Assembly (NCBI RefSeq): GCF_014652455.1
Contig: NZ_BMYV01000001.1
Coordinates: forward strand, 248,001-312,000
DNA from: Litorimonas cladophorae
GTDB lineage: Bacteria; Pseudomonadota; Alphaproteobacteria; Caulobacterales; Maricaulaceae
Length of the DNA: 64,000 nt
Reading direction: 5' to 3'
In this document: one piece after another, positions 40,830-44,249 of the stretch
Position numbering within the stretch: the stretch's first letter is position 1
Layout of the letters: each line of letters starts with the position of its first letter
Translations under genes and position numbers: made by a program
The notes under the pieces: model-generated
The model's input: the letters and a program-made list of their open reading frames with translations, nothing else
What the model was told of the DNA's origin: nothing
Databases searched by the model: none

Positions 40830-41405
40830 CCATCGACGTTACCCGATAGGGTTTGCCCCGAAGGGGATAGCGGCGATGCTCTATCGGGCGCCGGCATAGG
40901 TCGAGGGACACGCAAATGTCCGCCACGCACGCAACCTCATGCCTAGTCATTGCAAGGCTCGACCTTGCAATCCACAAGTCAGTTACCTGTGGATCACAAG
41001 AACAGGTCTTGTGAAGACGAAGAGAGAGGTGGGGCGATTTAGCCACCTTTCTGCGTTTCGCGCCGCAGAACCATTTCGGTTCCTGTATCTCGTAGTCTGG
41101 AAAAATGTCCCGAGTGACGGGATGTTCGCGAGTGTATTCTAGGGTCCAGCGGAACTGGAAAAGCTTGGTTTTGGTTTTCGACCCCGAAGGGACACTCGCG
41201 ACGACGCCTTTTTCCAAGATTGGCCGAGCTACGCAGTCGAGGCGTAAACAGCTCACAATCCGCCACCCAGATTGACCGACATTACCCGATCTCCCCCAAT
41301 GACAAGCGCCGCTTCTTTCCGATCAGATCAATGTGCACATGACCGCCCGTTGAAAGAAGACAGCTTTAAAATGACACAGAATCCGAAAGCGGGGAGACGA
41401 TTGTT
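40830..41405. other. Intergenic region rich in small palindromes
   Basis: 576 bases without a convincing gene. It contains several short hairpins, among them the pair listed separately, CCCCGAAGGGG (40857-40867), TCCAG...CTGGA near 41145-41159 and CTGCG...CGCAG near 41051-41069. ORFs on the minus strand lack a ribosome binding site and any protein motif. The stretch may be made of degraded intergenic repeats of the kind common in Alphaproteobacteria, next to which the IS1595-like element inserted. Confidence 0.5.
40950..41014. repeat. Pair of perfect palindromes, intergenic repeat type
   Basis: First palindrome 40950-40970: arms TTGCAAGG and CCTTGCAA with a 5-base centre. Second palindrome 40994-41014: arms TCACAAGA and TCTTGTGA with a 5-base centre. 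The context GTCATTGCAAGG...CAATCCAC resembles the widespread alphaproteobacterial intergenic palindrome of the GTCATTGC...GCAATCCA type. They could act as transcription terminators or be selfish repeat remnants. Confidence 0.6.
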
Positions 41406-41413
41406 GAATTTTG
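41406..41413. repeat. Left 8-bp target-site duplication
   Basis: GAATTTTG immediately outside the left inverted repeat; the same eight bases follow the right inverted repeat at 44118-44125. An 8-bp duplication is the size known for IS1595-family transposition. Confidence 0.85.
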
Positions 41414-41438
41414 GGCGTATATATACTTGACAAACCCA
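41414..41438 (+). repeat. Left terminal inverted repeat (IRL)
   Basis: Reads GGCGTATATATACTTGACAA then ACCCA inward. It pairs with the right repeat, GGCGTATGTGTCTTTGACAA then ACCCA. The two share the outer GGCGTAT and the inner TTGACAAACCCA block. The inner block includes a perfect TTGACA. Confidence 0.85.
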
Positions 41439-41454
41439 CCGCATCTGGTATCTA
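41427..41454 (+). promoter_or_regulatory. Transposase promoter overlapping IRL
   Basis: TTGACA at 41427-41432 and TATCTA at 41449-41454 with a 16-base spacer. The transposase ATG at 41461 lies only 6 bases after the -10, so a transcript would be nearly leaderless. Having the -35 inside the inverted repeat lets the transposase bind its own promoter region. Confidence 0.5.
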
Positions 41455-41460
41455 GAATGC

Positions 41461-42468
41461 ATGAGCATCCTATCTAAGCCATTCTTTCACAATGAAGCCG
41501 CCGCCTTTGAGTATCTCGAAGGTCTGATCTGGGGCGATAAGCCCGTATGCCCAAAGTGCGGAAACACTGAAAAGAAGATTTACGCGCTAGAGGGTGTTCG
41601 ATCTAAGGCTTCTAAAAAGAACCCTAATGGCGTGGAGCGGCACGGCCTAAAGAAGTGTGGCGCATGTCGCAAGCAGTTTACTGTACGTGTCGGCACTGTT
41701 TTTGAAAGCTCTCACGTCCCTTTGCACAAGTGGTTGCAAGCCGCTTATCTAATGATGTCCAGCAAGAAGGGTATCAGCTCCAAACAGCTAGAGCGCACAT
41801 TGGAAGTCACTTACAAGACGGCGTGGTTTATGTCTCACCGCTTGCGTGAAGCTATGGCGTCTAACGCTATGCCACCGATGGGCGGCGAAGGTTCTATTGT
41901 CGAAGCTGACGAAACATATTTTGGCAACAAGTTGAGCCTCAAAGCCCGTGCCAAACTGCCCCGCATCATTACTCGCGACGAAAACGGCCATATTCTAAGC
42001 TCTAAGCCGAACCCAGCCGTGTATCACAACAAGCATATCATCGTATCGCTTGTTGAGCGTGGCGGCTCTGTGCGTTCGTTTAAAGTTGATAGCGCGACGG
42101 TTTCTAATGTCGCTAAGATCGTCACCGAAAACGTTGATCGCCAGACGCATCTTATGACTGACGAAAGCAAGCTATACACTCGCGTAGGCGCTCAATACGC
42201 GAACCATGAGTTCGTGACACATAGCCACAAAGAATACGCACGTGGCAACGTCACGACGAACACAATCGAAGGCTATTTCAGTATCTTTAAACGCGGCATG
42301 AAAGGCGTGTATCAGCATTGTTCTGAGAAGCATCTACACCGCTATCTCGCTGAATACGACTTCCGCTATAACAACCGTGAACGCCTCGGCGTCAATGACA
42401 TAGAACGGACGGCAAACGCCTTGCAGGGTATCGTAGGCAAGCGTTTGACGTATCATGGGCCTAACTAA
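41461..42468 (+). CDS. IS1595-family transposase
   Basis: 335 residues. N-terminal zinc ribbon CPKC (C30, C33) with CGAC (C66, C69), followed by a helix-turn-helix-like region (GISSKQLERTLEVTYKTAWFMSHRLREAM split around 104-132). The ISXO2-like catalytic domain has D150 in EADETYFG, D234 in LMTDESKLY, then N267 and E270 in NTIEGYFSIFKRGMKG, and the late YNNRERLG. This fits the D-D-N/E arrangement of IS1595 transposases. The gene is intact with no frameshift. Its start lies 23 bases inside the inverted repeat. Confidence 0.95.
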   Translation: MSILSKPFFHNEAAAFEYLEGLIWGDKPVCPKCGNTEKKIYALEGVRSKASKKNPNGVERHGLKKCGACRKQFTVRVGTVFESSHVPLHKWLQAAYLMMSSKKGISSKQLERTLEVTYKTAWFMSHRLREAMASNAMPPMGGEGSIVEADETYFGNKLSLKARAKLPRIITRDENGHILSSKPNPAVYHNKHIIVSLVERGGSVRSFKVDSATVSNVAKIVTENVDRQTHLMTDESKLYTRVGAQYANHEFVTHSHKEYARGNVTTNTIEGYFSIFKRGMKGVYQHCSEKHLHRYLAEYDFRYNNRERLGVNDIERTANALQGIVGKRLTYHGPN

Positions 42469-42531
42469 AAAGACGCCAGTAAAAGGCGAAGTGCAATATA
42501 AATTCGACTTCTAAGTCGCCCCTTTAGGTGG

Positions 42532-42549
42532 TGAGTCATTTTGACTCAC
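42532..42549. repeat. Perfect inverted repeat inside the insertion element
   Basis: GTGAGTCA and TGACTCAC with two T between. A further GTGAGTC lies at 42591-42597. Located just behind the transposase gene; may act as a binding site for an element-encoded protein or as a weak terminator. Confidence 0.55.
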
Positions 42550-42597
42550 TACAAACTGTTAACTTGACCTCAACCAATTATTGACTACTTGTGAGTC

Positions 42598-42670
42598 GCG
42601 GCCCTTACTTAGTGATAAGACCCCTCGGGCGCTTCCTAACGGATAGCTAAGCTGCGGGCCGCTCTTTTTT
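42598..42670 (+). terminator. Long stem-loop with T run behind transposase
   Basis: GCGGCCC (42598-42604) pairs with GGGCCGC (42656-42662), 51-base loop, followed by TCTTTTTT. It could end the rightward transposase transcript before the convergent DUF3800 gene, whose stop is at 42673. The unusually long loop makes a simple intrinsic terminator less certain. Confidence 0.4.
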
Positions 42671-42672
42671 CC

Positions 42673-43332
42673 TTAATAGTAATGATGAGTACCACGGGCG
42701 AATAAGTCATATTCCCGTCGAACTTTGTTTTCAATTATGTCGTATGACCTAGTGTCGTCACGCTCCCATTTTCTCTGGATTGCCCATGCGCAATAATCTG
42801 CGATTTGCAAGCATGGGTCGGCTTGTGAAGGGGGAAATGATGTTTCCCAAGTCTTCCCTCTAATAGTTTGCTGCATGACGTCGTTAACGGCGCTTGTGTA
42901 GACAGCTTGACCTTTTTTAGTGCCAATGGCGGCTGCGGAGATCATGGCTTCATCATGCCCATACATCAGCGCGGGGCCAATTGTCTTAAGATGATAAAAC
43001 CATGCATATTTATAAAATCTATCATTTGTGGTGCGAGTTTGAGGCTGTGCTTTAGATTTCTCTAGGATTGTAACATCAATCCTAAATTCGTGGTGGGATA
43101 AGAGTTCAAAAACCTCATCCCTTACCTCTTGTTTGTCTTGAGTGCAGTGGAACATGTGGTGCTTTACAGGCATCTTGCGCCATATCATATCTCGCCTTAA
43201 GTCTTGTAGTGCCGTACCTAAGTCACAATCTGTCATGGTGACAGTGCAGACAATAAAGTAACGACTGGCCCGTTCGTTACGCTTAAAAACGAAACAACCC
43301 GCTTCGTCGGAAAAAATGTAAGCCCTACTCAT
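42673..43332 (-). CDS. DUF3800 domain protein, transposon passenger
   Basis: 219 residues from ATG 43332. The start MSRAYIFSDEAGCFVF holds the acidic Asp-Glu motif typical of DUF3800, and the C-terminal QIADYCAWAIQRKWERDDTRSYDIIENKV holds a second acidic/Lys motif. DUF3800 proteins are predicted RNase H-fold nuclease-like proteins found on mobile elements; no activity is established to my knowledge. An in-frame start at 43371 would overlap the divergent small ORF. The gene is inside the IS1595-like element and points towards the transposase. It may be a defence, addiction or transposition-assisting gene. Confidence 0.85.
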   Translation of the reverse strand: MSRAYIFSDEAGCFVFKRNERASRYFIVCTVTMTDCDLGTALQDLRRDMIWRKMPVKHHMFHCTQDKQEVRDEVFELLSHHEFRIDVTILEKSKAQPQTRTTNDRFYKYAWFYHLKTIGPALMYGHDEAMISAAAIGTKKGQAVYTSAVNDVMQQTIRGKTWETSFPPSQADPCLQIADYCAWAIQRKWERDDTRSYDIIENKVRREYDLFARGTHHYY

Positions 43333-43479
43333 ATGCCTAAAAACCAAACCCAAATCGAAAAATTCAAACAAACAGCCCGTGAGCTAGAGTGCGATGAATC
43401 CGAACGAGGCTTTGCTGAAAAACTCAAACGAATCGCAAAACCACAAGATGCACCTATAAAGGGTGAATCGCAGGGCTAA
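43333..43479 (+). CDS. 48-residue basic/acidic helical ORF, transposon passenger
   Basis: 48 residues, MPKNQTQIEKFKQTARELEC onwards to KGESQG. The pattern EKFKxxARELECDESERGFAEKLKRIAK is helical and charged, and resembles short proteins I recall beside DUF3800 genes on IS1595-type elements. Its ATG abuts the divergent DUF3800 start (CATATG, starts at 43332 and 43333), so a shared regulatory region or leaderless transcripts must be assumed. It could be a partner or antitoxin-like protein of DUF3800; this is inference. Confidence 0.55.
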   Translation: MPKNQTQIEKFKQTARELECDESERGFAEKLKRIAKPQDAPIKGESQG

Positions 43480-43586
43480 GTCGAGTCGCCTAGCAGATAG
43501 GCTGTTGAGAACACAGTGTGAACATTGTTGCGCCTCACGCGCGAATCGCTTATTAAGCTTGGGTAAGGGGAGAAAAGGTTGATAAT

Positions 43587-44033
43587 ATGGCTCAGGCCAA
43601 CACCGTTTTTTTAGTTCAGATTCATTTAAAAAAGAAAATAGAGGATAGCCCCGAAGTAATAGCTCACATCGGTAAGAGCATTCTCCACAGCGTCTTAGAC
43701 GCTACCGACAATCCTATGACCTTGTCTTTCGTTGTGGTTGCCCGAGGCAATGCGCAATCAATCCTCAAGCGTTATGAAGGGATCTCCAACCATGAGGGCG
43801 TTCACAACGTTAGGGTTTTGACTACCAACCCAAACAACGCTTCCAGTCTCGGTATGCTGGACCCAATCGGACCCAAGTTGGAGATGGCTTGGCGGCGTGT
43901 TAGTGAGGGACGTCAAACCGAAAAGCTCATTCAGCGAAACGGAGCGTCCAAGCGCCAAGTTAAGCGCGCACTTCGAAAGTCTGGCGTGTCCAGCCGCACT
44001 GGACGTAAACAGCCGCAAAACGCGGATAAGTGA
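43587..44033 (+). CDS. 148-residue protein of unknown function, transposon passenger
   Basis: 148 residues with a strong ribosome binding site (AAGGGGAGAAAAGG) upstream. The N-terminal part looks like a small alpha/beta domain (VFLVQIHLKKK, MTLSFVVVARGN, VHNVRVLTTNPNN). The C-terminal 50 residues are very basic (RRVSEGRQTEKLIQRNGASKRQVKRALRKSGVSSRTGRK), suggesting nucleic acid binding. I do not recognise the family. It is the last gene before the right inverted repeat. Confidence 0.7.
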   Translation: MAQANTVFLVQIHLKKKIEDSPEVIAHIGKSILHSVLDATDNPMTLSFVVVARGNAQSILKRYEGISNHEGVHNVRVLTTNPNNASSLGMLDPIGPKLEMAWRRVSEGRQTEKLIQRNGASKRQVKRALRKSGVSSRTGRKQPQNADK

Positions 44034-44092
44034 TAGTTTAGCTTTCATACCCCTACCTCTAGCAGGTGAGGGTAAAGAAAGATTCTTATTAA

Positions 44093-44117
44093 TGGGTTTG
44101 TCAAAGACACATACGCC
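44093..44117 (-). repeat. Right terminal inverted repeat (IRR)
   Basis: Read inward on the minus strand: GGCGTATGTGTCTTTGACAA then ACCCA. It matches the left repeat at the outer 7 and inner 12 bases, with mismatches in the middle. Confidence 0.85.
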
Positions 44118-44125
44118 GAATTTTG
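44118..44125. repeat. Right 8-bp target-site duplication
   Basis: GAATTTTG immediately outside the right inverted repeat, identical to 41406-41413. Confidence 0.85.
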
Positions 44126-44249
44126 TTATAAGTCCATGAAATCGTTGAATTTAGTTTTTCCGAAAAGCGGGAAAGACTTTCGAAACGAACGAGCAATTTC
44201 CTTCGGTTAGGCCTAGGCTAAGGTCTAACCACATGTTACGATTTTGGCA

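Follow-up and report, generated by a model that had tools for sequence, protein, structure and literature searches.

A probable cargo-carrying IS1595-family element in Litorimonas cladophorae with a constant backbone, two variable slots and a DUF3800-RNA module

The question raised by this locus is why an insertion sequence carries several genes besides its transposase, and whether these genes belong to it. The locus lies in a window of 64,000 nucleotides from Litorimonas cladophorae (assembly GCF_014652455.1, contig NZ_BMYV01000001.1, positions 248,001 to 312,000 of the forward strand), in which the element occupies positions 41414-44117 (2704 bp; all coordinates are those of the window). An earlier annotation made from the letters alone, hereafter called the original prediction, described it as a recent IS1595-like insertion with three cargo genes, one of them coding for a DUF3800 protein. 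The analysis makes it likely that the unit is an IS1595-family insertion sequence with passenger genes (tIS), in which a constant backbone alternates with two variable slots and a DUF3800 protein with an adjoining structured RNA forms the cargo of the first slot.

End pairs on either side of the transposase were compared exhaustively to locate the ends of the element. The left terminal inverted repeat GGCGTATATATACTTGACAAACCCA (41414-41438, forward strand) and the right one, GGCGTATGTGTCTTTGACAAACCCA read inward (44093-44117, reverse strand), match at 21 of 25 positions (82 % over 28 nt), and a perfect 8-bp duplication, GAATTTTG, lies on both sides (41406-41413 and 44118-44125). The runner-up pair had 14 of 25 matches and a 7/8 repeat, so the ends and the duplication are not due to chance. 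The transposase (335 amino acids, 41461-42468, forward strand) scored 108.9 bits against PF12762 (cut-off 27), 41.5 bits against PF12760 (cut-off 25.4) and 187 bits against NF033547 (cut-off 75), and its residues D150, D234 and E270 are invariant in 20 aligned sequences. Its zinc ribbon and ISXO2-like DDE domain, with the inverted ends and the 8-bp duplication, place the element in the IS1595 family, as originally proposed with correct coordinates. An 8-bp target duplication is a trait of this family, for which a DDE transposase acting at the element ends is the established mode of transposition, and the duplication in the window fits this mode. The original prediction also stated that the element had moved as one unit; the duplication does record one insertion event, but it does not settle whether the present genes arrived together. 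As for the insertion being recent, the element is absent from the two nearest of the relatives examined, G307 and G287 (nuoA 98 % and 92 % identical), but neither offers an empty site that aligns cleanly, the surrounding intergenic DNA being unalignable across the site; a third genome, G093, aligned on the nuoA side only. The single transposase match in the genome of L. cladophorae (9 contigs) is that of the window, and neither a second copy nor a transposase-only copy with the same ends, which the original prediction had named as evidence against integral cargo, was found there.

Relatives of the transposase (E ≤ 1e-40) were present in 71 of 299 genomes searched in the order, the own genome included. 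Forty of the listed loci, mostly the best ones, were taken with their flanks, and ends with a perfect 8-bp duplication were found in 36 of them (2.0-3.5 kb). A scan of the whole genome collection gave at least 570 confirmed relatives, the best 80 of which were analysed; all 80 carry alphaproteobacterial names, from genera which we take to belong to that class, and 58 have ends with a perfect duplication (1.9-4.0 kb). The other 22 are divided equally between loci where the contig ends no more than 1.6 kb from the transposase match (11) and loci where it continues further (11). After three duplicates were dropped, the window and 91 relatives made up 92 distinct delimited elements, with sizes of 1.9-4.0 kb (smallest 1894 bp), all of which have at least one open reading frame (ORF) of at least 130 codons behind the transposase. 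Cargo is therefore the rule in this lineage, and the view that it is unusual had to be given up, while its presence between the clean ends of the window element was borne out.

The cargo differs even between elements with similar transposases. Among 140 element pairs with more than 70 % transposase identity, 28 share a cargo cluster and 112 share none (clusters by BLAST single linkage, with orphans counted as different). The transposases of L061 and L063 are 98 % identical, and one of these elements carries a DUF3800 gene, the other a PIN gene and its partner. When 12 chosen pairs were aligned, the left end and transposase formed a common block in all 12, a stretch with a small ORF was common to 11 and the right end to nine; in L062/L163 the small-ORF stretch joins the left block, and L031/L032 share no small-ORF stretch. 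The remainder of the elements did not align, and two slots were therefore defined, slot A between the transposase and the small ORF and slot B between the small ORF and the right end. In the window the small ORF has 48 codons (43333-43479, forward strand), slot A contains the DUF3800 gene (219 amino acids, 42673-43332, reverse strand, with an ATG at 43332 and a longer TTG start at 43371), and slot B contains an ORF of 148 codons (43587-44033, forward strand), a putative gene only, for which neither a family nor a good relative was found. Between the window and L031 the transposase identity is 76 %, the small ORF is 79 % identical in DNA sequence and the right-end 26 bp are identical, whereas BLAST at 1e-4 detects no similarity between the two DUF3800 proteins, each of which exceeds the Pfam cut-off. 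DUF3800 proteins of the window type were found in L152 (50 % identity) and L112 (46 %), where the transposases are 53 % and 59 % identical to that of the window. The three ORFs of the window thus do not form one integral set, as had been supposed: the 48-codon ORF belongs to the backbone, the 148-codon ORF is an orphan and DUF3800 occurs apart from the element. Relatives of the DUF3800 protein without a nearby IS1595 transposase were found at six places (L184, L185, L189, L190, L228 and L229; inverted repeats were not searched there), which agrees in part with what had been proposed as a refutation of integral cargo, but the 148-codon ORF does not accompany them. An 1869-bp element on a Pseudosulfitobacter plasmid (L188) was considered as a cargo-free member and rejected, having further short ORFs in slot B; its duplication matches at 7 of 8 positions.

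In four pairs the two elements sit at one site, in one orientation and with the same duplication, and both flanks could be aligned (for L061/L063 the right flank aligns from 24 bp outwards); the cargo cluster differs in three of these pairs (L061/L063, L040/L044 and L044/L046). Such differences could also arise if one favoured target received different elements again and again, with no exchange in place, an explanation to which we give a chance slightly below even. Re-insertion at a hot spot has to be taken seriously as an alternative because L039 lies at the L040 locus in reverse orientation. Further, a palindrome beyond the 8-bp duplication repeats the tip of the element in 14 of 15 CCTAA-tip and four of four CACGA-tip elements (TAGG-N8-CCTA, GTG-N8-CAC; L037-L049 and L151; L043-L052 junctions), so that insertion would regenerate the target at both ends; a tip match on both sides was found in 25 of the 92 elements overall (null about 0.08 for one side). 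In L061/L063, moreover, the likeness of the left block (95.7 %) exceeds that of the flanks (88-91 %). What re-insertion leaves unaccounted for is the occurrence of near-identical transposase and small-ORF blocks around unlike cargo, for which replacement is needed at some point. The flanks of L037, L039, L040, L042, L044, L046 and L163 are alike, some in opposite orientation, and the cargo is different, so that one locus has been targeted repeatedly. SufE (5) and ROS/MUCR (4) recurred among 139 flank ORFs and were not traced to a repeatedly hit locus.

The conservation of the small ORF was overlooked in the original prediction. Two types of hidden Markov model profile, each started from six seeds and refined by iteration over these elements, matched 90 of the 92 elements (type 1 in 69, type 2 in 23, two by both). 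Of the 80 elements not used as seeds, 78 were matched, and inspection by eye shows a similar ORF in L174, which is one of the two without a match. The same profiles gave five matches in 854,612 bp of flanking DNA, the cargo regions amounting to 162,736 bp. Differences between the small ORFs of close pairs fell on the three codon positions as 90/75/158 (nine pairs) and 31/26/73 (four pairs), and the excess at the third position indicates a gene under coding constraint. Its product is a charged peptide of approximately 48 residues with two predicted short helices (AlphaFold, predicted local distance difference test (pLDDT) 71.9, predicted template modelling score (pTM) 0.32), and a search of solved structures with its profile brought up nothing below E 0.5. 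The type-1 profile was also run on 150 genomes of the order and matched 32 times, in 26 of them; 25 of these matches lie within 3 kb of a transposase match and one near a transposase fragment. Across the 69 type-1 elements (Mantel tests, 2000 permutations) small-ORF identity correlated with transposase identity (r 0.54, 0/2000; partial 0.53 given cargo), and the small ORF follows the transposase far more than the cargo.

The small peptide may act with the transposase or on expression of the element, as a backbone factor, a role for which the chances appear about level. That its gene is kept mainly as a shared block for exchange is improbable. A further explanation has the peptide regulating the cargo gene next to it or serving as its antitoxin, which would make each pair a toxin-antitoxin-like unit and the peptide an antitoxin-like part of the cargo and not of the backbone; this is likewise unlikely. 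It is suggested by the close packing of the genes. The type-2 small ORF is head-to-head with the largest cargo ORF in 20 elements and after it in one, and 18 of these 20 head-to-head cases have start codons that overlap by 2 nt (use of the nearest possible start biases the distances downwards); in the window the ATG of the DUF3800 gene (43332-43330) directly abuts that of the small ORF (43333), as CATATG, and overlaps of 4 nt were seen in four tail-to-tail and three same-strand cases. The cargo is moreover rich in RNase-like families, and a residual correlation between small ORF and cargo remains (partial r 0.11 given transposase). Against this, one peptide family stands beside cargo as unlike as DUF3800, PIN, BstA and PD-Lambda-5 and in several arrangements (relative to the largest cargo ORF, type 1 is head-to-head in 25 elements, follows on the same strand in 21, is tail-to-tail in 21 and precedes it in two), it follows the transposase, and the available stretch of five DUF3800 relatives without IS1595 (L184, L185, L190, L228 and L229) contains no small ORF; at L189 the contig ends at the place where a small ORF would be expected.

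The proteins encoded by the cargo appear to be skewed, by similarity to family models, towards toxin- or defence-like families. Of 176 cargo ORFs of at least 100 codons, 139 were scanned (139 of the 145 of at least 130 codons, six being omitted), and 139 of 616 flank ORFs served as control. Pfam families in the cargo, as far as the 25 listed of 44 go, included DUF3800 (26), PIN (11), SocA_Panacea (3), PIN_10 (2), NYN (2) and HNH (2), and the 25 listed of 72 PADLOC families included PDC-M04A (6 and 4), BstA (3), HEC-09 (3) and DUF3800_VII (3). The best PADLOC matches were PD-Lambda-5_A (E 3.7e-164) and BstA (5.8e-119); L122 is among the elements with BstA cargo, and a 3.6-kb Mesorhizobium element (L161) carries both PD-Lambda-5 genes, PD-Lambda-5_A and PD-Lambda-5_B. 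When 20 cargo proteins were scanned singly, nine had a PADLOC match at 1e-3. None of PDC-M04A, BstA, HEC-09, DUF3800_VII and PD-Lambda-5 was found by PADLOC in the 139 flank ORFs, whose Pfam families were mainly of the housekeeping kind, and DUF3800 and PIN were not among the 25 listed of 191 Pfam families there. Ten slot-B proteins have an invariant R-x4-H motif like that of HEPN RNases, a label that neither Pfam (one member scanned) nor PDB (no relative below E 0.5) confirmed. The guess of the original prediction that the cargo serves defence or addiction therefore suits the lineage as a whole, and for the window it has the DUF3800_VII match (E 9.9e-9) as its only PADLOC counterpart.

A sister IS1595 clade (L215-L224, 10 loci, 38-42 % transposase identity) also has elements of 2.2-3.0 kb, of which four, 2.2-2.9 kb long, have perfect duplications and one of 3.0 kb has a 7/8 repeat in a poly-A run, and the small ORF was found at none of its 10 loci. 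This clade, and the passenger genes that insertion sequences, IS1595 included, are known to carry as tIS (accessible portions of PMC11891212 and PMC7986276), would suit an ordinary element with chance-captured passengers, no constant second gene and a frozen accident in the window, which is very improbable given the small ORF in 90 of 92 elements and a cargo skewed, relative to the flank control, towards DUF3800, PIN and certain defence models.

The DUF3800 assignment of the window protein proved real though modest (PF12686, 32.7 bits, cut-off 21). Close relatives are rare, being present in three of 299 genomes of the order (own included), three plasmid records and three phage records, and residues D9, E10, D172 and D179 are invariant in three sequences. 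The AlphaFold model is of middling quality (pLDDT 68.7, pTM 0.72); its best Foldseek match was NurA (E 0.026), with weak matches to integrase, RNase H and Argonaute, and the profile of the window type found no relative below E 0.5 among solved structures. An RNase H fold has been predicted for a DUF3800 domain, and an association with putative non-coding RNAs cited, in the accessible portion of PMC10910872.

Just beyond the stop codon of the DUF3800 gene, on the opposite strand, lies a structured RNA (42598-42662, forward strand; model match 42588-42676) which the original prediction had also passed over, and which is followed by a T-rich run. The stretch aligns and folds alike with L152 and L112, with paired changes at four of 20 pairs, and a similar hairpin is seen by eye in the same place in L184 (Ruegeria), L185 (Phaeobacter), L189 and L190, where DUF3800 occurs without IS1595 nearby. 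Across the seven sequences, the distant ones being aligned by MAFFT only, 11 of 16 pairs have compensatory changes, and from the G-U pairs the RNA and the DUF3800 gene lie on opposite strands. An RNA model, R1, matched L189 (5e-12) and L190 (0.011), matched L184 only at E 0.9 and did not find the stretch in L185. L190 in turn matched Rfam DUF3800-IX (RF02968) with 35.5 bits (E 3.9e-4), just under the gathering score of 36.8, suggesting that the window RNA is a relative of this class; at gathering scores Rfam gave nothing on eight relatives. When used alone in 385 genomes of the class, R1 gave three matches, in the window, G388 and G552, all beside DUF3800 relatives (41 % identity in G388 and 54-65 % in G552), and within about 5 kb in G388 and G552 there was neither an IS1595 transposase nor a small ORF. 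A fold at z ≤ -2.5 was obtained for the gap behind the transposase in 11 of the 15 members of the large DUF3800 cluster whose gap measures 50-260 nt, in one of three window-type elements (the window, -2.66) and in two of 11 others, one of which also has DUF3800; terminators between convergent genes could be the source of these folds. Near the Phaeobacter DUF3800 gene, L185 4799-4876 matches Rfam istR below its cut-off (32.9 of 45 bits).

Our preferred reading is thus one of inverted ends, transposase and the gene of the approximately 48-residue peptide as a constant backbone, in which the slots would be refilled, by the simplest route, through homologous recombination within the stretches that the elements have in common (the transposase, the gene of the peptide and the right end), perhaps even at a site where an element already sits. 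Slot A of the window element would hold the DUF3800 protein, a probable RNase-H-like nuclease, with a DUF3800-IX-type RNA read towards it, and slot B the orphan ORF. The pair is most readily seen as an RNA-controlled nuclease with a toxin- or defence-like role that would favour retention of the element or protect the host; that the RNA restrains or guides the nuclease, the pair serving the element as cargo for addiction or defence, is judged about as probable as not. A bolder form of this reading, which we hold to be possible and rather doubtful, would make the alphaproteobacterial IS1595 lineage a cassette platform, with the tiny gene as hinge of two slots and in-place swapping of toxin or defence modules in an element of 2-4 kb, a one-transposase counterpart of the integron, the window carrying an RNA-controlled DUF3800 nuclease with a new RNA class.

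Several results, with the reversed L039 insertion, weigh against the preferred reading. In 117 of 121 protein pairs from elements with common cargo, the cargo proteins are less similar than the transposases, so some of the cargo scored as different may have diverged and not been exchanged. The small-ORF models were iterated on the elements in which they were counted, six of their 32 matches in the order, three of them strong, had no recognisable transposase, and weak links to cargo were seen for both the small ORF (r 0.145, 2/2000) and the transposase (r 0.099, 8/2000). Ends were not found at 11 of the best 80 relatives that had room downstream. Eleven of the 20 singly scanned cargo proteins had no PADLOC match, and the flank control matched 18 other PADLOC families. 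Foldseek found nothing at E ≤ 0.001 for the DUF3800 model, and neither the window RNA nor the rest of the element had an Rfam match up to E = 5, the RNA falling short of the DUF3800-IX gathering score (36.8 bits).

Passenger genes in IS1595 elements are known already (accessible portions of PMC5704250, PMC11891212 and PMC7986276), for example in ISNha5, which has a regulator gene (PMC11891212), and in tISCpe8 and MTnSag1, the former a lincomycin resistance element according to a reference title in PMC5704250. The window element resembles these in its IS1595 transposase, inverted ends and passengers between them; its non-transposase genes vary among relatives and are presumably dispensable for transposition. 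What sets it apart is that cargo is found throughout the delimited members of its lineage, along with a second constant gene and two variable slots. With the Rfam pairs of DUF3800-type RNA and protein (RF02968 DUF3800-IX, RF02969 DUF3800-I) the window has the domain and the adjoining structured RNA in common, whereas its RNA is outside the Rfam matches and its pair is transposon cargo. Tn7-like transposons have multi-gene Tn7 machinery, whereas here one transposase and one small peptide are found in 2-4 kb. Both kinds of element combine a transposon backbone with cargo of several sorts, defence genes among them, as far as the accessible portion of PMC8649781 goes. With the anti-phage systems in PADLOC (BstA, PD-Lambda-5, PD-Lambda-2, HEC-09 and PDC-M04) the likeness lies in the cargo of related elements, which matches the models, the window matching DUF3800_VII only; PD-Lambda-5 and PD-Lambda-2 protect E. 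coli against phage, according to the part of PMC9519451 that was available. Among the literature matches listed, as titles and abstract openings and with the original IS1595 description not covered, there was no description of the lineage, its second constant gene, the two slots, the toxin or defence skew or the RNA. Small single-transposase elements are usually taken as selfish and poor in cargo, whereas a common alphaproteobacterial lineage here keeps its mobility genes and varies toxin- or defence-like modules. Cargo of unidentified family beside the signature small ORF offers a guilt-by-association route to new defence genes, the role of the small peptide becomes a testable question, and the DUF3800-RNA pair is a compact system for probing the roles of DUF3800-type RNAs.

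A possible frameshift product past the transposase stop codon was dropped, the short tails being similar only inside subgroups. TTGACA-like blocks point inward at both ends of the element (41427-41432 and the right end) and, by eye, in many relatives, and could be -35 boxes for the genes at each end. The flanks beyond the duplication (41379-41405 and 44139-44180) have imperfect repeats in common, with GTTGAATTT-like and CCGAAAGCGGG-like stretches, and homology with two relatives ends at 41379.

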